This document shows, in pieces, positions 1 to 33,209 of a stretch of 33,209 nucleotides of DNA. Every line of letters starts with the position of its first letter. The stretch's first letter is position 1. The notes beneath the pieces are model-generated. The model had not been told where the DNA came from. It searched no databases and saw only the letters and a program-made list of their open reading frames with translations. Source of the DNA: a virus. The stretch spans positions 1 to 33,209 of IMG/VR virus record IMGVR_UViG_3300044637_002128. One strand, given 5' to 3'. The position numbers were made by a program, and so were the translations under genes.

Positions 1-226
1 AGAAGTAGTATCTTTTGGATACATCTCCCCAAGAGATGACTCGTGTTAAATCTATTCGGGTCTTAGCTGATCTACCATGTGTAGAAGCAGTAACGAATCC
101 ACCTCACAAGGGTGGATTTTGTTATTTTGATTTGACCATACCGCCCACGCATAAAACTTGAGGGAGTGCCCTTGGGGAGGGTCTGTGAGATCACGGACGA
201 TCTGCGCAAATCGGCCGGTTTTTTGT
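1..226 (+). ncRNA. Structured RNA region, version 1 (multi-hairpin, ends in U-run)
   Basis: Hairpins in order: P1 TCTTTTG 11-17 with CAAGAGA 30-36; P2 GACTCG 38-43 with CGGGTC 57-62; a P3 insert around 68-91, absent from version 2; P4 AATCCACCT 96-104 with GGGTGGATT 110-118, followed by a T-rich stretch; a closing helix P5, CCGCCC 141-146 with GGCCGG 213-218 (one C-C mismatch); inside P5, P6 157-164 with 169-176 and P7 GTCTGTG 181-187 with CACGGAC 192-198; then TTTTTT. Most of these helices recur at 32922-33105 with pair-preserving substitutions. Strand is assigned from the U-runs and from the flanking rightward genes. It matches no RNA family I can name. An early-to-late read-through control element is an inference from position. 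Confidence 0.7.
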
Positions 227-307: not shown

Positions 308-332
308 AGACTCGCGCAAGTGGGTCTTTTTT
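308..332 (+). terminator. Rho-independent terminator upstream of late operon
   Basis: AGACTCGC 308-315 pairs with GTGGGTCT 320-327 around a GCAA tetraloop (8 bp with G-U wobbles) and runs into TTTTTTA. It is the third terminator-like hairpin in the first 332 bases. The window's right end (33209) stops inside the T-run of the second copy. Confidence 0.75.
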
Positions 333-463
333 ATTTGGAGTATTCTAAATTAAAAGTGGTGGATTTATTTGGTCTTATGGAGGCAAAACATTGCAAGTCT
401 ATGATATTGAGTAGGTTCTCCCGAGGTGGTTGGAATTAGCGCAACGCCATCGCGAAAAGTTCT
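333..463. other. Leader stretch without a supported gene
   Basis: Between the 308-332 terminator and the putative late promoter I see no gene with a ribosome-binding site. A 20-codon frame starting at 377 has no Shine-Dalgarno, and the longer open frame 158-439 crosses the structured RNA. Confidence 0.5.
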
Positions 464-496
464 CAAATCGGCAGATTTGCATAAGTGCATTATAAT
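464..496 (+). promoter_or_regulatory. Putative late promoter: perfect -10 with a dyad in place of -35
   Basis: A perfect TATAAT lies at 491-496, giving a start near 503, just before the AGGGGG ribosome-binding site of the terminase gene. No -35 hexamer sits 16-18 bases upstream. Instead there is a perfect inverted repeat CAAATC-GGCA-GATTTG at 464-479. This layout would suit an activator-dependent late promoter; that is inference. The predicted leader of about 14 nt resembles that of the early promoter at 27517-27546. Confidence 0.45.
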
Positions 497-516
497 CATG
501 TAAATAGGGGGATTTG

Positions 517-1131
517 GTGGAAGAACCACAGAAGCCAAAAACCGAAAAGACAAGAAAAAAAAAGGTGATGACAAAAAAGGCAAGTATGTGTACAGTATAC
601 GCTTGCAAAAATGTGGCTCACCGAAAAGGGTTATGTCGAAAGCACATGACAGAACTTGCAAAAGGTCAAGGATTGACCGATCATTTAGGACGTGCAACTC
701 CTACACCAATTCAAGCTCAAATTCGCACTTATAATAAAAAGTCTCCCTTGGAAATCAGCGAAGACGGAGACGATGACCTTTTAAGCCAAATCCAAATGCC
801 ATCGCAAATCGCTTTGGATATCCAAGATAAACCCTACGATGAGCTAATGAAGGAAGCCCTTTATTGGCAAAGCGAACAACGCAAAGAATCTGCACTCAAA
901 ACCAAAAGACAAAATGAAATTCTTGAGGGGAAAATCATTGATGTTGACTCAGCAAGTCAAGAGGCTTTTGAAATGCTCTCTGTTTTAGTGGGCAAGCTAA
1001 GACAAGTGCAATATGTTTTGACCCCCCTCTTGGTCAATCAATCCAATCCCCAAAAAATCCAAGGTATAATCGAAAAAGAGTTCAACAAAGCCTTTGCCAA
1101 TATCGAGGAGTTTTTAAGTGATCGGGGCTGA
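517..1131 (+). CDS. Terminase small subunit (putative)
   Basis: About 204 residues. First gene of the late operon, directly before a GpA-type large terminase and overlapping it by 14 nt, which is where the DNA-recognition subunit sits in lambda-like phages. The N-terminus is very basic (KTEKTRKKK) and is followed by a small zinc-binding motif C-x4-C-x9-C-x2-H near residues 25-43, of the kind found at the ends of HNH-like proteins. The C-terminal half is helical. GTG at 517 is preferred: AGGGGG 506-511 is 5 nt away, whereas the TTG at 514 is only 2 nt away. The assignment rests mainly on position, as the sequence is not close to Nu1. Confidence 0.7.
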   Translation: MEEPQKPKTEKTRKKKVMTKKASMCTVYACKNVAHRKGLCRKHMTELAKGQGLTDHLGRATPTPIQAQIRTYNKKSPLEISEDGDDDLLSQIQMPSQIALDIQDKPYDELMKEALYWQSEQRKESALKTKRQNEILEGKIIDVDSASQEAFEMLSVLVGKLRQVQYVLTPLLVNQSNPQKIQGIIEKEFNKAFANIEEFLSDRG

Positions 1132-3025
1132 TGAGTATCGTAAGTATCTTGCCCGTAAACTAGCCCCCATTTTTAGAGCTAGAACGGATCGACCTGTTTG
1201 GGAGTGGTGTGAGGAAAAGCTAAAACTTCCCGCGGGTGAGGGTTTGATGGGTAAAGACTCTCCCGACCATAGCCTTGTTCCCGAATCAAAGTTTGCTTTG
1301 GAGCTAGTGAGAAATCCCAATGTGCGTATGATCGTGATGATGTATGCAGCGCAAAGCTCAAAGACCTTTACCATGATGGAAGCCACAGCGTACATGATGG
1401 GTGAGCGTAAGGTTAATGGCGTTTTTGCTTTACCATCCACGACTTTGCAGACTCGAATTTATGCCAGGTTTAGAGCCATTGCTGAACGCTCGCAAATTGG
1501 CATGATCAACGAGCGTGGCAAGTCTAACAAAGAGCAGATCCGTTTTGAAGCGGGGAACTACGTCAACTGGGCTTTGATGTCCTCACCCCAAACAATGGCC
1601 GAAACTCCTGCCGATTGGGTGGTGGCGGATGAGATCGATGAAAACAAAAATGGTGACCTCGACCCAATTAGACTTTTAACAGCCCGTGGTCAAACTCGCC
1701 CAAACTTCAAGATGCTCATCGGATCTACCCCCAAAAAGTTGCAAGGTGGCGGTGGAATCCTGGACTATTACCAAAAATCAAAACGCTATCAAATTGTTTG
1801 GCTTTGCCCACACTGCAACAAGTGGGAACACTTTGATTTTGAGACTTTCCGTTGGCCTGAAGGTGTTGATTGGCGAGTGATCCAAACTGAAAGTCTAGCT
1901 TGGGCTGAGTGTCCCAATTGCGGTGGCAAGATCACAGATGCAGATCAGCGCAACCTAGTGGAAACACAGCGTTTTGAATGCCTTGATCCCGATCTACCCG
2001 AGACGAGTATAGGCCTATCCAAAGCGATTTGGCACACGATCAGCAAAAGCATCAGCACTTGCGTTGGCGCATATCTTGAATGCAAAGACGAGCCATCAAA
2101 ACTTGCAGACTTTTACAACTCTTGGTGCGCTAGGCCGATGGATTTGAGCGTCCTCACCACAGACTTTGAGGAGTCCGAAAGGCTCACGGATATCCCGCGC
2201 GGTGTGATCCCTAGTGATGTGGTGGCACTCACAATTGGCATTGACGTGGGCGTGGATTCAATTTTTGTGGCTCTTATCGGTTGGTCAAGTAGCGACCGAA
2301 AATACTTGATTTGGGAAGATGTTTGCTTTTATGGCGGGGTCGATACCTTTGAACGTGCCGAGCAACAGATCCTTGAGATCACAAGCCTAGACCGCTTTGA
2401 GTATGTCGGTCAAGGTCAAAAGCCTAGGGTGATTGGCGGGGCTATGGACTCTGGATTTAACACCAGGGCGGTCTATGACTTTTGCCGAAGAAACCCTTGG
2501 TGCGTGCCGATCAAAGGAAATGCCCGCCTCGATCAACCTTGGAAAATAACTGACGCAGACCCTAAAGCACAATACGGAAAAAGCTCAAGAGGCGTTGTCC
2601 TTTATAGCCTAAATCACGGGTATTGGCAAGATGAGTTGCATCGCTCACTTGAGATCAAGGGCGGTATGAGTGGATCACTATCGATCCCCTACGATGTTTC
2701 AAAACGATACTTGCAGCATCTAAATAGTGAGGTCAAAAAGCGAATTGAAACGCGAAACGGGGTGGAATATCGGTGGGAAAAACCACATTTACACGCAAGA
2801 AACGACCTTAGAGACGCGACTATCTACGGAATTTTTGCGGGTCACCGCCTAAATTCTCACAAGATTAAGCTTGAGCAAGTGGCAAAGACCGAGCCAACCA
2901 TGCCAAAACAAGAGCAAAACGAGCCAAAAAGCCTAGTTTTGGCGCAAGAAACCAAGGCGAAGGCACCGCTTTTGAGCAATCAATTCCAAAGATTGGCATC
3001 AAAAAAAATAGGGGCAAGGCTTTAA
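1118..3025 (+). CDS. terL: Terminase large subunit, GpA family
   Basis: 635 residues, the usual length for lambda gpA-like terminases. This is the packaging motor: an ATPase that translocates DNA into the prohead plus a nuclease that cuts the concatemer. Visible features are a degenerate Walker A region (MMYAAQSSKTFTMM), Walker B VVADEID, a CPHC...CPNC zinc pair in the middle as in GpA proteins, and a C-terminal nuclease segment beginning IGIDVGVDS. The GTG start at 1118 overlaps the end of the small-subunit gene, suggesting translational coupling. The long acidic/basic tail after about residue 590 looks disordered. Confidence 0.93.
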   Translation: MIGADEYRKYLARKLAPIFRARTDRPVWEWCEEKLKLPAGEGLMGKDSPDHSLVPESKFALELVRNPNVRMIVMMYAAQSSKTFTMMEATAYMMGERKVNGVFALPSTTLQTRIYARFRAIAERSQIGMINERGKSNKEQIRFEAGNYVNWALMSSPQTMAETPADWVVADEIDENKNGDLDPIRLLTARGQTRPNFKMLIGSTPKKLQGGGGILDYYQKSKRYQIVWLCPHCNKWEHFDFETFRWPEGVDWRVIQTESLAWAECPNCGGKITDADQRNLVETQRFECLDPDLPETSIGLSKAIWHTISKSISTCVGAYLECKDEPSKLADFYNSWCARPMDLSVLTTDFEESERLTDIPRGVIPSDVVALTIGIDVGVDSIFVALIGWSSSDRKYLIWEDVCFYGGVDTFERAEQQILEITSLDRFEYVGQGQKPRVIGGAMDSGFNTRAVYDFCRRNPWCVPIKGNARLDQPWKITDADPKAQYGKSSRGVVLYSLNHGYWQDELHRSLEIKGGMSGSLSIPYDVSKRYLQHLNSEVKKRIETRNGVEYRWEKPHLHARNDLRDATIYGIFAGHRLNSHKIKLEQVAKTEPTMPKQEQNEPKSLVLAQETKAKAPLLSNQFQRLASKKIGARL

Positions 3026-5794: not shown

Positions 5795-6688
5795 ATGGCA
5801 AACTCAGTATTTACCAACGGAACAATTGCGGAAATCGGCCAAGAGGTTGTTGAGGCTCTTAGCCCTACAATCGCAGCTTTCAATGCTTTTGCGGTTGGTG
5901 TTGATGCCTCGCGCAACTTGCAAGGTGATGTGGTCAAAGTCCCCGTCTATCAAGCTGCCACTGCGGTGGACTTTAACGCATCGACTGCCAACTATTCAAA
6001 TGAGGATGATGGCGGTGTGGTCTATGTCGATGTGACCTTGAACCAACGCAAAAAATCAACTCAAGGCATCCTTGAGCGCAACATGAGTCGCGTGAATGCT
6101 CAATCGATCATCAAGGCCTCAATGTCGGCTGTGATTGAATCCACATTCCAAGCGGTGTGCTCTAGCATCACCTTGGCCAACTTTGGAGCGGCATCTTTCA
6201 CAGGCGCAGCATCCACATTTGACCTTGCCGATGTTGCCGATCTTTGGGCGGTTGCGAGCAATGCAAAATGGAACATGGGCGATGACGTTTTGGTGCTCTC
6301 CCCATCCTACTACTCAGCTCTGCTCAAAGATGCGGGCGTTATCTCTGTGGATCGTTCGGGGTCGACTGCTGCCTTGCGTCAAGGTGTGATCGAAAACCTT
6401 AATGGCTTCACTGTCTACCCCACAAACATCTTGCCTGGCAATGGTCAAAACCTCGTTGGCTTTATGACTGACAAATCTGCAATCGCAGTTGCTTTTGGTG
6501 CGGATGATGCCGAAGTTGGTGGCTCGATCCTCAGCTATGATGTTGTGGCCGATCCGCAAACAGGTATGCAATTTGCAATCTATGAGTTCATCGACCCCAA
6601 CACACGCACTCGCAAAATGTCCGTTGAAGCCCTCTTTGGCTTTAGCGTGGTTCGCGCGGGCTCCTTGCGCCGCTTGGTCTCTGCTTAA
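5795..6688 (+). CDS. Major capsid protein (HK97 fold, putative)
   Basis: 297 residues, following the protease/scaffold gene and followed by a strong terminator, which is the usual place and setting of the major capsid gene. The sequence has features of HK97-fold capsids: an N-terminal helix (IAEIGQEVVEAL), an extended E-loop-like region with TLNQRKKSTQGIL, and a C-terminal EALFGFSVVRAGSLRRLVSA. Codon use is cleaner and GC-richer than in the small genes, as expected for the most highly expressed protein. No separate decoration gene is recognisable beside it. Confidence 0.85.
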   Translation: MANSVFTNGTIAEIGQEVVEALSPTIAAFNAFAVGVDASRNLQGDVVKVPVYQAATAVDFNASTANYSNEDDGGVVYVDVTLNQRKKSTQGILERNMSRVNAQSIIKASMSAVIESTFQAVCSSITLANFGAASFTGAASTFDLADVADLWAVASNAKWNMGDDVLVLSPSYYSALLKDAGVISVDRSGSTAALRQGVIENLNGFTVYPTNILPGNGQNLVGFMTDKSAIAVAFGADDAEVGGSILSYDVVADPQTGMQFAIYEFIDPNTRTRKMSVEALFGFSVVRAGSLRRLVSA

Positions 6689-6706
6689 TCAAATCAAATC
6701 CCAATT

Positions 6707-6736
6707 GGGGTGGGGTCTCTGCCCTACCCCTTTTTT
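6707..6736 (+). terminator. Rho-independent terminator after the capsid gene
   Basis: GGGGTGGGG 6707-6715 pairs with CCCTACCCC 6722-6730 (9 bp, one G-U), loop TCTCTG, then TTTTTT. It lies inside the rightward late operon, with the next gene's ribosome-binding site directly after it, so it must be partly read through. It probably sets a high capsid-to-tail transcript ratio. Confidence 0.85.
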
Positions 6737-6748
6737 ATAGGAGCTAAA

Positions 6749-7165
6749 ATGAAAGCCTTTGCAATCATCACGGAAACGCAGTCACAAGCCTATGGCCCAT
6801 TCGCAAACAACGACCAAATGCGGGCAAAACTTGACGAAGTGACTGCTCAATATCAAAACGATTCGGTTGGGTGCCAAGTTGTGCTTTTTGAAAAAGTCAG
6901 CAAGTACAAGGTGCGTAAGCTCAATATCGAAGCGGTTGAAGCCGATCCAATTGTGATCCAACCAAGCGACATCGGCACTCCCGTTCCTCAAGGCGATGTG
7001 CCACAGCCCGAATCTCCCGAGGTTTTAGCCTACCGCTCACAGCTTGAGCCGATGAGTGCAGAAGATTTGCGTCAACTTGCAAACCTCAAAGGTATTGACG
7101 GACGCATCCAGAACCGCGACCGACTCATCGAAGAGTTGATCATGATCTTTAAATTGGAGCAGTAA
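6749..7165 (+). CDS. Head-completion region protein with C-terminal SAP/HeH-like helices
   Basis: 138 residues, unknown function. The N-terminal half is a small alpha/beta region (residues 1-65); a Pro-rich linker follows (QPSDIGTPVPQGDVPQPESPEV), and then a compact helix-helix unit SAEDLRQLANLKGIDGRIQNRDRLIEELI that looks like a SAP/HeH fold. Many phages carry such a protein between capsid and tail genes, like lambda FI in position. ATG 6749 with TAGGAG, right after the terminator. Confidence 0.6.
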   Translation: MKAFAIITETQSQAYGPFANNDQMRAKLDEVTAQYQNDSVGCQVVLFEKVSKYKVRKLNIEAVEADPIVIQPSDIGTPVPQGDVPQPESPEVLAYRSQLEPMSAEDLRQLANLKGIDGRIQNRDRLIEELIMIFKLEQ

Positions 7166-26826: not shown

Positions 26827-26932
26827 CGAGCCTCTTAGCTTCCTCAATGGTCATGACTTCAAAACCCCATGGAGCTTTGAAAAGATGGAGGGCTTTGTTA
26901 CCCTCCCATCGGACAAATGTGAGCCAAGTCAT
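26813..26932 (-). CDS. 39-residue unknown protein
   Basis: MTWLTFVRWEGNKALHLFKA followed by PWGFEVMTIEEAKRLDAFK: small alpha/beta look with many aromatics. ATG overlaps the previous stop (ATGA) and its end overlaps the next gene by 14 nt. Confidence 0.55.
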   Translation of the reverse strand: MTWLTFVRWEGNKALHLFKAPWGFEVMTIEEAKRLDAFK

Positions 26933-27348
26933 TTGTCGGGATCCTCAAAATGTTCTTTATCATCAAAGAACGCATTGGCTCGGTTTTCGCAGTTGATCAA
27001 GTCCTCCCACAGATACGAATCCTTGATCGAGAATTGAAGCGCGGGGCCCTGCAGATCAACCGCTTTTTTGATTAAGTCAATCGCAAAAAGTGCTTCACTC
27101 GCCTCTTTGCAATGCTTATCTAGCGAGTGCTGATCCCAATCTTTGCACTCACCATCAAAATCCTCGTAGTCTTTTGGGTCAAAAACGCGGTCAAAAGTGT
27201 GGTTGATGGCCTTATAAGACTTTGTTACCCCTTGGAATACGAACTTTGTTACCCCTTGGAACACCAAAAAGGACATATCGCCTTGGTCGTCGATGCTCAG
27301 TTCAACAGAGTGAGTATCAAATTGTGCTAGTGTGAGTTCGGTGCTCAT
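26929..27348 (-). CDS. 139-residue acidic protein with an 8-residue tandem repeat
   Basis: Strongly acidic, rich in Asp, Glu and Lys. Near residues 28-43 the segment FLVFQGVTK-FVFQGVTK shows a direct duplication of eight codons (24 bp), visible in DNA as two copies of TTTGTTACCCCTTGGAA at about 27218-27260. The C-terminal half is helical (HSLDKHCKEASEALFAIDLIKKA). Small acidic early phage proteins sometimes mimic DNA or bind host enzymes, but nothing specific is visible here. Confidence 0.65.
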   Translation of the reverse strand: MSTELTLAQFDTHSVELSIDDQGDMSFLVFQGVTKFVFQGVTKSYKAINHTFDRVFDPKDYEDFDGECKDWDQHSLDKHCKEASEALFAIDLIKKAVDLQGPALQFSIKDSYLWEDLINCENRANAFFDDKEHFEDPDK

Positions 27349-27451: not shown

Positions 27452-27481
27452 AATGTACTCTATTTTTTGGGGAGTGTGCAA
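27452..27481 (-). promoter_or_regulatory. Main leftward promoter
   Basis: On the minus strand TTGCAC (27481-27476), 18-base spacer, TACATT (27457-27452). The spacer contains AATAGAG next to the -10, as at 20774-20745. Predicted leader of about 38 nt to the ATG at 27407. Confidence 0.6.
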
Positions 27482-27488
27482 ACTTTTT

Positions 27489-27525
27489 GAACAAAAAAAA
27501 ATTTTCTAGAACAAACTTGAACAAA
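27489..27525. promoter_or_regulatory. Operator candidate: three phased GAACAAA boxes
   Basis: GAACAAA occurs at 27489, 27509 and 27519, spaced 20 and 10 bases, that is on one face of the helix. The third overlaps the -35 (TTGAAC) of the rightward promoter and the first lies 8 bases from the -35 of the leftward one. The 10-base pair GAACAAAC-N2-GAACAA recurs at 32190-32205. Confidence 0.55.
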
Positions 27526-27546
27526 GATGGAAAATTGATCTATATT
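27517..27546 (+). promoter_or_regulatory. Rightward early promoter
   Basis: TTGAAC 27517-27522, 18-base spacer, TATATT 27541-27546. Start near 27553, just before AAGGAGG (27556-27562) of the HTH gene, so the leader is about 14 nt. Confidence 0.7.
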
Positions 27547-27566: not shown

Positions 27567-27737
27567 ATGACAAAAATGCTCTTTACCGCTACAGAAGCGA
27601 TGCAAATGCTCGGGCTAAGTCGGGCTCAGTTCTACAAGATCAAAAGCGAGATCGAGACGATCCGACCTGTTAAGGCTGAGATGTACACCAAGGAAGCTCT
27701 AGAAAAATGGGTCGAGTCGAAAAGGGAGGTAAAGTGA
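27567..27737 (+). CDS. Small HTH protein (excisionase/MerR-like)
   Basis: 56 residues. Residues 6-28 (FTATEAMQMLGLSRAQFYKIKSE) form a helix-turn-helix of the HTH_17/AlpA type, followed by a wing-like VKAEMYTKEALEKWV. It is the first gene after the divergent control region, so it may regulate that region, perhaps through the GAACAAA boxes; this is inference. No integrase accompanies it, so an excisionase role is unlikely. Strong AAGGAGG site. Confidence 0.75.
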   Translation: MTKMLFTATEAMQMLGLSRAQFYKIKSEIETIRPVKAEMYTKEALEKWVESKREVK

Positions 27738-31560: not shown

Positions 31561-32049
31561 ATGACTGAGTTTGAAAAGTGGTGCGAAGAGAATGGGTTTG
31601 ACCCCGAGGGTGAGTTTGAATTGTTGTCACCTATTAGAGGTTCCGATGCAGTGAAAATCGGTGACTTTTTTACTCTAGCAAATGATGACAACACAAGCAC
31701 GCCATATTTCCGCTGCAAGCGGAATAGCATAAGGGTTGCTATCGGTCTCCACCGCCTCATCCAACGCAAACCGAGACCCCAATTCGACCCCCACACATTC
31801 GACTTTCGGCAGGTGTTGCCGAAGTGTTGGGTGCGGGATCGTGAAGCGGATGAATGGAGAGAAGCGTGGTTTTTGGAGATTACGGATTGTCCTTATCCGT
31901 TTCGAGTAGCTGGCAATTCTGGTTCGTCGTATTTCTTTTACTGCACATTCGAAGACCCCACAATCGAACAACGCAAAACTGAACTCAAATCCCGAGCTGA
32001 GGAGCTTCGGGCGGAATTGGCACGGATTGAAAAGGAGTTGGGGGAATGA
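31561..32049 (+). CDS. 162-residue protein, paralogue of the 32541 gene
   Basis: Starts MTEFEKWCEENGFDPEGEFEL; the gene at 32541 starts MTPFESWCAERGASVEDWFL, and both continue with a DD...PYFxxK segment, so they share a small domain. The C-terminus is a coiled coil (TELKSRAEELRAELARIEKELG). ATG 31561 is 8 nt after AAGGAG; GTG 31558 is possible. Function unknown. Confidence 0.65.
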   Translation: MTEFEKWCEENGFDPEGEFELLSPIRGSDAVKIGDFFTLANDDNTSTPYFRCKRNSIRVAIGLHRLIQRKPRPQFDPHTFDFRQVLPKCWVRDREADEWREAWFLEITDCPYPFRVAGNSGSSYFFYCTFEDPTIEQRKTELKSRAEELRAELARIEKELGE

Positions 32050-32168
32050 CCTACACCGACCCTAGCGTGATCCTTTATCGTTGGCTTGAGGATAATAAAC
32101 CGAATGATCCGAAGCCGATTGAGGTTGAGGATGTGGAGTGGGATGATGGTGGGGTGGTGGGGTTTTAA
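32046..32168 (+). CDS. 40-residue acidic protein
   Basis: MTYTDPSVILYRWLEDNKPN then a strongly acidic end (EVEDVEWDDGGVVGF). Overlaps the previous gene by 4 nt. Its stop runs into the start of the attC-like hairpin. Confidence 0.55.
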   Translation: MTYTDPSVILYRWLEDNKPNDPKPIEVEDVEWDDGGVVGF

Positions 32169-32227
32169 CGCTTGCGACTATGCGCGGTCGAACAAACCCG
32201 AACAACGATTGCGCATGGTCGTTGTTA
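32166..32227. other. attC-like folded element with GAACAAA loop
   Basis: TAAC 32166-32169 pairs with GTTA 32224-32227; an inner continuous 15-bp stem (GACTATGCGCGGTCG 32176-32190 with 32206-32220, wobbles included) encloses the loop AACAAACCCGAACAA. An alternative stem AACAACGA 32201-32208 with TCGTTGTT 32219-32226 excludes the first. It could be a recombination site, an operator or an RNA switch. Confidence 0.5.
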
Positions 32228-32237
32228 TATCCAGTGC
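32224..32237. repeat. Left 14-bp inverted repeat of single-gene cassette
   Basis: GTTATATCCAGTGC; matches the inverse of 32480-32493 at 13 of 14 positions. It starts within the end of the attC-like element. Confidence 0.6.
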
Positions 32238-32255
32238 ATTCAAGGGCAATAAACC

Positions 32256-32480
32256 ATGAAACATCATCACATAAATACATCAAAAATCTATGAGGCATTT
32301 GTTAAAGAGCCTCACGAAGACGATGGATCAGACCCATTTGATAGGGGGTCTCATGGATGGCAAGTGGTGTTAGTTATGGGATATGACGAAAACGGATTCT
32401 CGCGAACTGTCATAGACAAAGAAAGCGAACAAGCGTGCCTAGAGTTTCTGACTAGTCTTGGTTTATTGAAAGTGAATTAG
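32256..32480 (+). CDS. 74-residue protein in inverted-repeat-flanked cassette
   Basis: MKHHHINTSKIYEAFVKEPH...GWQVVLVMGYDENGFSRTVIDKESEQACLEFLTSLG: a compact alpha/beta protein with no recognised family. It breaks the run of overlapping genes: 87 bases of non-coding DNA lie before it and 60 after. A 14-bp inverted repeat flanks it, the right arm touching its stop codon. No good ribosome-binding site (AAGGGCAATAAACC). The setting suggests an inserted unit such as a gene cassette. Confidence 0.6.
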   Translation: MKHHHINTSKIYEAFVKEPHEDDGSDPFDRGSHGWQVVLVMGYDENGFSRTVIDKESEQACLEFLTSLGLLKVN

Positions 32481-32493
32481 CATTGGATATAAC
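32480..32493. repeat. Right 14-bp inverted repeat of single-gene cassette
   Basis: GCATTGGATATAAC, the inverse partner of 32224-32237 with one mismatch. Begins at the last base of the cassette gene's stop codon. Confidence 0.6.
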
Positions 32494-32540
32494 TCGCATA
32501 TGACCGCACAAAACATTCGCTTTAGCGCAAAGGAACCAAA

Positions 32541-32753
32541 ATGACCCCCTTCGAATCTTGGTGCGCCGAAAGGGGTGCATCTGTTGAGGATTGGTTTCTC
32601 ACGACCGATCAAGCCGATTTGCTTTTGGTCCCGAGTGGACTAGAATGCGGTCTAGCTGAGGATGATGGATCAGACGAACCTTATTTCTATGTTAAGGGTC
32701 AAGGGCATCGGTTTCTGAGGCTGGATATGATTGAGGTGAAACGTGACAAGTGA
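32541..32753 (+). CDS. 70-residue protein, paralogue of the 31561 gene
   Basis: MTPFESWCAERGASVEDWFL then LAEDDGSDEPYFYVKGQGHRFLRLD: the short version of the domain in the 162-residue protein upstream, without its coiled coil. AAAGGAACC before the ATG. Its end overlaps the next gene by 11 nt. Confidence 0.65.
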   Translation: MTPFESWCAERGASVEDWFLTTDQADLLLVPSGLECGLAEDDGSDEPYFYVKGQGHRFLRLDMIEVKRDK

Positions 32754-32850
32754 GCAGATCTTTTTGGTGATCTTCGCGGTGCTTAGTCCAATGGCACTTG
32801 GGATTACTTTGGTTGCAATGCTTCGGGCTTTTGCGAGGCTCCACAAGTGA
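32743..32850 (+). CDS. 35-residue membrane microprotein
   Basis: GTG start. MTSEQIFLVIFAVLSPMALG then ITLVAMLRAFARLHK: one hydrophobic helix (about 6-26) with a basic C-terminal tail, so likely N-out or tail-in. It overlaps both neighbours (11 and 4 nt). GAGGTGAAAC precedes the start. Small membrane proteins of this kind can act as holins, pinholins or host modifiers; no evidence separates these. Confidence 0.5.
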   Translation: MTSEQIFLVIFAVLSPMALGITLVAMLRAFARLHK

Positions 32851-32921
32851 ACGAATTTGATCTAATCACGGGGCTTGCGATTGTTGCGGGCGTTGTGGTT
32901 GCTTTTTGGAAAAAGAAGTAG
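32847..32921 (+). CDS. 24-residue membrane microprotein, last gene
   Basis: GTG start inside the previous gene (GTGA). MNEFDLITGLAIVAGVVVAF then WKKK: acidic start, one short membrane helix, Lys anchor. The final codons AAG-AAG-TAG are also the first bases of this window (2-8), evidence that position 1 begins in another version of this same locus. Confidence 0.5.
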   Translation: MNEFDLITGLAIVAGVVVAFWKKK

Positions 32922-33105
32922 TATCTTTTGTGGCATCCCCGCCAAGAGAAGGCTCAAGATTTTTTGGGCTTAACAAATCCACCTTTGTGAGGTGGATTTT
33001 GTTATTTTGATTTGACCATACCGCCCACGCATAAAACTCGATGGCGATCCATCGGGGAAGGTCTGTGAGTTCACGGACGATCTGCGCAAATCGGGCGGTT
33101 TTTTG
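32922..33105 (+). ncRNA. Structured RNA region, version 2
   Basis: Same order as 1-226 without P3: P1 TCTTTTG 32924-32930 with CAAGAGA 32943-32949; P2 GGCTCA 32951-32956 with TGGGCT 32965-32970; P4 AATCCACCT 32976-32984 with AGGTGGATT 32990-32998; P5 CCGCCC 33021-33026 with GGGCGG 33093-33098 (perfect here) followed by TTTTTT; P6 33037-33044 with 33049-33056; P7 GTCTGTG 33061-33067 with CACGGAC 33072-33078. Directly downstream of the last early gene. P2 and P6 differ from version 1 by compensatory base changes, which supports a folded RNA. Confidence 0.75.
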
Positions 33106-33209
33106 TTATATTGTTGATGCCAAATGGCTCAGGAACCTTTCTAGTCTTGATGACCAACTGATTCAAGATTCTTTGTCATGGCAAATTAGACTCGCGCAAG
33201 TGGGTCTTT
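33096..33209 (+). repeat. 114-bp exact repeat of 216-329
   Basis: Every base from 33096 to the window end equals 216-329 (offset 32880). It covers the 3' side of P5, the U-run, a TTATATTG motif, a predicted folded stretch and the hairpin of the third terminator. Confidence 0.97.

Follow-up and report, generated by a model that had tools for sequence, protein, structure and literature searches.

Which function is served by the series of hairpins between the early and the late genes of this uncultured phage? Is it a plain set of transcription stops, or a regulatory RNA that controls entry into the late operon? The window analyzed here is the whole IMG/VR virus record IMGVR_UViG_3300044637_002128 (33209 bases), which is classed as linear. 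In an initial annotation the element was described as a conserved structured RNA, present in two versions, and it was read as a site of antitermination or attenuation. Here, it is proposed that the spacer of this phage, whose terminase is of lambda type, consists of tandem intrinsic terminators that keep early and late transcription apart, a reading to which we assign a probability of roughly 60%. It is supported by the gene order, the preserved base pairs, the U-runs and by the closure of the branched structure P5 onto TTTTTT in both versions.

Gene order around the spacer

The gene annotation of the window revealed a tailed-phage gene set with a lambda gpA-type terminase. The large subunit gene terL (1118-3025), a match to phrog_15 and of lambda type, is followed by genes for portal, head protease, major head protein and tape measure. 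A leftward operon encodes an exonuclease, a methyltransferase and a resolvase-like protein, and a rightward early operon encodes an HTH protein, a DnaT-like protein, a DnaB-type helicase and small ORFs. A promoter-like site at 27517-27546, near the start of the rightward operon, is the predicted early promoter. Repeated TTGAACAAA-like motifs, possibly operators, surround it at 27480-27527, upstream of a small HTH_17/excisionase-like gene (27567-27737). As a further observation, the leftward ORF 26929-27348 contains an imperfect tandem repeat at 27208-27267, and its protein has a repeated FVFQGVTK. No tRNA or tmRNA genes were found by ARAGORN. The element lies in a spacer of about 510 nt between the rightward replication operon and the lambda-type terminase operon, with these genes on its two sides:

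32847..32921, + strand: final small ORF of the rightward early operon, translation VNEFDLITGLAIVAGVVVAFWKKK; short, taken as coding from its position
514..1131, + strand, start at 514 or 517: terS, terminase small subunit (phrog_57), first gene of the late operon

The stop codon of the small ORF directly precedes the hairpin element. The placement between early and late operons given in the initial annotation was supported, with the early rightward operon on one side and terS, terL, portal and head genes on the other. A possible protein ORF across the element (158-439, with a possible GTG start at 185) was rejected, since its codon usage equals the null mean (-0.057 per codon compared to about +0.07 to +0.19 in clear genes), which is the level of spurious ORFs; 1-513 is thus taken as non-coding. 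The order within the spacer is P1, P2, T1, the branched stem P5-P7 running onto a U-run, T3, a cos-like block, a sigma70-like promoter and terS.

Hairpins and putative terminators of the spacer

Folding of the spacer resulted in the following structures:

10..37, + strand: P1 hairpin, version 1 (version 2 at about 32924-32949); arms TCTTTTG/CAAGAGA the same in both
38..62, + strand: P2 hairpin, version 1 (version 2 at 32951-32970); two double compensatory changes and one change from G-C to G-T
66..88, + strand: small extra hairpin of version 1 only, inside a 28-nt stretch missing from version 2
89..128, + strand, core 95-119: T1, intrinsic-terminator-like hairpin, version 1; T-rich tail, z -4.2
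32971..33008, + strand, core 32975-32999: T1, version 2; loop inverted relative to version 1, z -4.7
140..224, + strand: P5, 80-nt branched structure, version 1; closing stem ACCGCCC/GGCCGGT with one C.C mismatch, inner stem 148-151/203-206, then TTTTTT
33020..33104, + strand: P5, version 2; perfect closing stem ACCGCCC/GGGCGGT, then TTTTTT, z -3.97
157..176, + strand (version 2 at 33037-33056): P6 hairpin within P5; pairing kept through one double and two one-sided changes, loop different
181..198, + strand (version 2 at 33061-33078): P7 hairpin within P5; stem unchanged, one loop base differs
308..333, + strand: T3, intrinsic-terminator-like hairpin; GCAA loop, then TTTTTT, z -3.6

T1 and T3 have the form of intrinsic terminators, i.e., a stable stem and a short loop with a T-run directly after it on the transcribed strand, and this form matches that of the clear stops elsewhere in the phage (6707-6730, 18607-18624 and 20646-20677). 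Counts of terminator-like and promoter-like sites in the region as a whole are not far above those in shuffles. The closing stem of P5 is likewise followed by TTTTTT, but the loop it encloses comprises 66 nt and is itself structured. The branched shape of P5-P7 is the same in both versions, each folded independently; in version 1 the structure is no more stable than shuffles (z -0.77). The earlier description of terminator-like stems in series with helices kept between the two versions was borne out by the folding and by the comparison of pairs described below.

In likeness to the tandem Rho-independent terminators at phage operon ends, T1 and T3 show a G+C-containing stem, a short loop and a T-run at an intergenic, operon-end position. 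In contrast to those, the spacer additionally contains two hairpins that are not terminators and a branched 80-nt stem that closes onto a U-run. P1 and P2 lack a U-run and are therefore not regarded as terminators; termination by itself does not account for their being preserved, nor for the preservation of the branched interior of P5. Two further points speak against a plain terminator, namely that an 80-nt branched structure is superfluous for one and that the closing stem of P5 is mismatched in version 1. It is possible that P1-P2 and the branched interior of P5 have a role in processing, stability or regulation.

Entry into the late operon

In the model that we prefer, RNA polymerase moving past the last early gene would transcribe P1 and P2 and then meet T1, P5 with its U-run and T3. 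Early transcripts would stop at T1, with P5 and T3 as backups, and together these stops would keep early transcripts from crossing the packaging site into the late genes, while late transcription would probably begin afresh at its own promoter just before terS. A candidate for this promoter was identified:

468-496, + strand: candidate late promoter TCGGCA-17-TATAAT, sigma70-like with 10/12 matches; dyad over the -35 (464..496)

Promoter-like sites are no more frequent in the region than in shuffles, so 468-496 is treated as a candidate late promoter. As it is located downstream of every terminator and directly before terS, entry into the late operon need not cross the hairpin element. The perfect 6-4-6 dyad CAAATCGGCAGATTTG at 464-479, which overlaps the -35 of the candidate promoter, possibly is a late operator. 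A search for repeats of this operator-like dyad elsewhere yielded the exact dyad at 464-479 only; a 15-nt partial copy at 207-221 was estimated to be within chance. If the spacer is a terminator cluster and nothing else, it adds another case of a phage insulating its early from its late transcription.

Two versions of the element at the contig ends

The two versions are found in the two overlapping ends of one 33.2-kb contig, both contained in the window, with 1-329 being homologous to 32914-33209. Their differences are scattered up to position 215, with some stretches, among them the 28-nt stretch mentioned above, present in version 1 only; positions 216 to 329 are identical. The record overlaps itself at its ends, as assembly from mixed strains should give if the genome is circular or concatemeric. 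As the ends overlap and as a strain contig with 96% DNA identity exists, the two versions are most simply regarded as strain alleles of one spacer locus rather than as two copies, and the record, though classed as "linear", probably represents a circular or concatemeric genome of about 32.9 kb whose junction varies between strains. Assembly overlap can thus put two strain versions of one locus into a single contig, and apparent covariation between the contig ends would then represent strain variation and not a difference between two gene copies. The 96%-identical strain (L105) is strongly divergent over about 900 bp corresponding to 6062-6951 of the window, which covers the 3' end of the major head protein gene and the genes after it.

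Preservation of base pairs between the two versions

Outside P1 and T1, 34 helix pairs were compared between the versions, and 27 of these are unchanged, three show double compensatory changes, three are changed on one side and still paired, and one is broken. All compensatory pairs named in the initial annotation were found to be exact, i.e., 39-61 (A-T in version 1, G-C in version 2), 43-57 (G-C to A-T) and 162-171 (G-C to T-A), and the same is true for the wobble pairs of P6 at 159-174 (T-G to C-G) and 160-173 (G-T to G-C). A further one-sided change was observed at 38-62 (G-C to G-T). The broken pair is 144-215, with C.C in version 1 against C-G in version 2. The arms of P1 are invariant and P1 therefore provides no covariation evidence. 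When the 17 substitutions were randomized over the compared columns, at least three pair-preserving double changes were obtained with P=0.0019 and at most one broken pair with P=0.0013, and with substitutions restricted to the clusters of P2 and P6 at least three double changes were obtained with P=0.022; this comparison rests on N=2 sequences, both of them contig ends, with no phylogenetic replication. Even with two sequences, the structure signal in the two versions is real and unlikely to have arisen by chance.

What has produced the matched changes is a separate matter. It was stated earlier that the hairpin loops vary freely. This does not hold for T1, where the change is an inversion and thus mutational rather than free drift: the loop of version 1 reads TCACAAG and that of version 2 TTTGTGA, and the reverse complement of the former is CTTGTGA (shuffle P=0.009), and the inversion was also recovered as a minus-strand match in the genome search. 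The change at 96-119 compared to 32975-32999 resembles the result of a template switch. Template switching at RNA hairpins is documented to invert loops, and the same process can also create matched stem changes (PMC8794818). Template switching could therefore mimic covariation, and it may contribute part of the apparent covariation here. That the covariation is mostly mutational, with template switching in inverted repeats yielding matched changes without any selection on RNA, finds a precedent in the T1 loop, which is an inversion of itself between the versions, and in the documented cases of such events (PMC8794818). We nevertheless judge it highly improbable, as the changes in the arms of P2 and P6 are, by sequence comparison, unlike an inversion of the other version and as the one-sided changes involving G-U preserve pairing too. 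For P2 and P6, selection on pairing is thus the simpler reading. In intrinsic terminators of Bacillus cereus, a stem pair was found changed on both sides in 208 of 927 alignments (PMC5381666), so compensatory evolution is to be expected for stop signals. According to our proposal, selection acts on stop signals and on structured 3' ends, and this is why pairing in the hairpins has been retained.

Search for homologues

Relatives were sought by TerL (single protein and alignments), by TerS and, among the matches listed, by the helicase, as well as by DNA patterns and by blastn against phages and plasmids. Among the matches listed there are two close relatives, L010 (IMGVR_UViG_3300047457_001169), whose contig starts at window position 595, and L011 (IMGVR_UViG_3300032116_001969), whose TerL is 66% identical and whose contig starts at about window position 440; both contigs thus start on the terS side of the element and do not include it. 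Among the protein, DNA-pattern and blastn matches listed, no homologue with the element was found. A covariance model had been suggested as a check; one of P5-P7 was built and run over 1.98 Mb of fetched loci and yielded no new homologue, the two source copies scoring 113 and 118 bits and the next best match 19 bits. Weak matches of this model in L068, L078, L084 and L119 (E 0.025 to 1) were treated as noise; the one in L084 lies inside an ORF before terL. A DNA-pattern match in L187, inside a reductase-like gene, is due to chance, and a 30-nt match to Lactobacillus phage A2 (E 0.3) in a T-run stretch was taken as chance as well. The earlier statement that no family with such a layout is known agrees with the result that there is no Rfam match at the gathering threshold, and with neither a homologue found nor an Rfam family at threshold the branched P5 stays unclassified.

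Alternative functions of the element

Antitermination of the put type, which suppresses termination farther downstream by way of the zinc-binding domain of the RNA polymerase beta' subunit and was put forward in the initial annotation, was not supported by the comparison with phage HK022. The put RNAs of HK022, of about 70 nt, form two stem-loops downstream of early promoters, putL following PL closely and putR lying about 270 nt beyond the PR start (PMC9378689). By analogy, P1 and P2 would bind RNA polymerase and allow read-through of T1, P5 and T3. As in putL/putR, an early phage transcript here carries two adjacent stem-loops ahead of terminators (PMC9378689), directly before the series, and P2 has two double compensatory changes; P1-P2 (10-62) also fits put in size and shape, which is weakly diagnostic. 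However, the location fails, since known put sites follow early promoters (PMC9378689), whereas the hairpins compared here by layout are situated at the end of an operon; the predicted early promoter lies about 5.4 kb upstream of them, and 32000-33209 contains no promoter-like site. In addition, P1-P2 is only weakly more stable than shuffles in version 2 (z -1.3, compared to -2.9 in version 1). A put-like antiterminator is thus extremely improbable. Attenuation by alternative pairing was not supported. In a regulated attenuator, P5 would act as a conditional terminator whose closing stem is set by a protein, a ligand or alternative pairing, the late operon being entered by controlled read-through. 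That each version is predicted on its own to form a branched fold closing onto a U-run is consistent with this, as are junction sequences that are identical while the peripheral helix P6 varies, although the junction identity is weak evidence because the next 107 nt are identical too. The strong alternative helix, 24-33 with 171-180, has a pair probability of 0.94 in version 1 and of 0.0 in version 2. As it is the sole one and specific to version 1, it gives no conserved mutually exclusive structure, and an attenuator based on it was rejected; the lack of a family match and the separate promoter candidate before terS also argue against attenuation. We consider a regulated attenuator unlikely, and likewise give a small chance to the broader notion that P5-P7 together with P1-P2 is a new phage regulatory RNA that switches early/late termination, with a protein, a ligand or polymerase state as the signal. 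If P5 is conditional, late genes of an uncultured phage group with almost no sequenced relatives would be under a switch of a new kind.

It is quite unlikely that the spacer gives rise to a stable small RNA acting in trans or as antisense, either as the 3' end of the early transcript or as processed P5. P5 is a compact folded unit that ends in a U-run, and P1-P2-T1 of version 2 resembles ColE1 RNAI (RF00106) in having three hairpins in a row, the last with a terminator-like stem. The score of 25.7 bits is below the gathering score of 47, however, version 1 has no RNAI match at all, and there is neither a promoter of its own found nor a known target. A function at the level of DNA, with the element being part of a cos packaging region and its inverted repeats serving as protein-binding sites, is very unlikely. 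It would suit the large terminase subunit, which is of lambda type (phrog_15), the position of the spacer immediately before terS, and the contig of L011, which begins in the spacer at a conserved block. Against it, the G-U wobbles 158-175, 159-174 and 160-173 keep pairing in RNA and not in DNA, the T-runs are placed as in terminators, and the block conserved with L011 is located about 215 nt downstream of the element. This block, at 440..466 (+ strand), matches L011:1-27, where that contig ends, and reads CGC..TCGCGAAA..T.CTCAAAT just upstream of terS. Lambda-like cos comprises about 200 bp with the subsites cosQ, cosN and cosB, the last of which binds TerS (PMC4669245). No repeat array was found in 1-520. 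As in lambda, there is a non-coding spacer beside terS, a gpA-type terminase and a conserved block within about 75 nt of terS; in contrast to lambda cos, the hairpin element is positioned well upstream of the conserved block. Judged by its position relative to the lambda-like layout (PMC4669245), the block 440-466 is a reasonable candidate for a cos nicking region or possible cos end.
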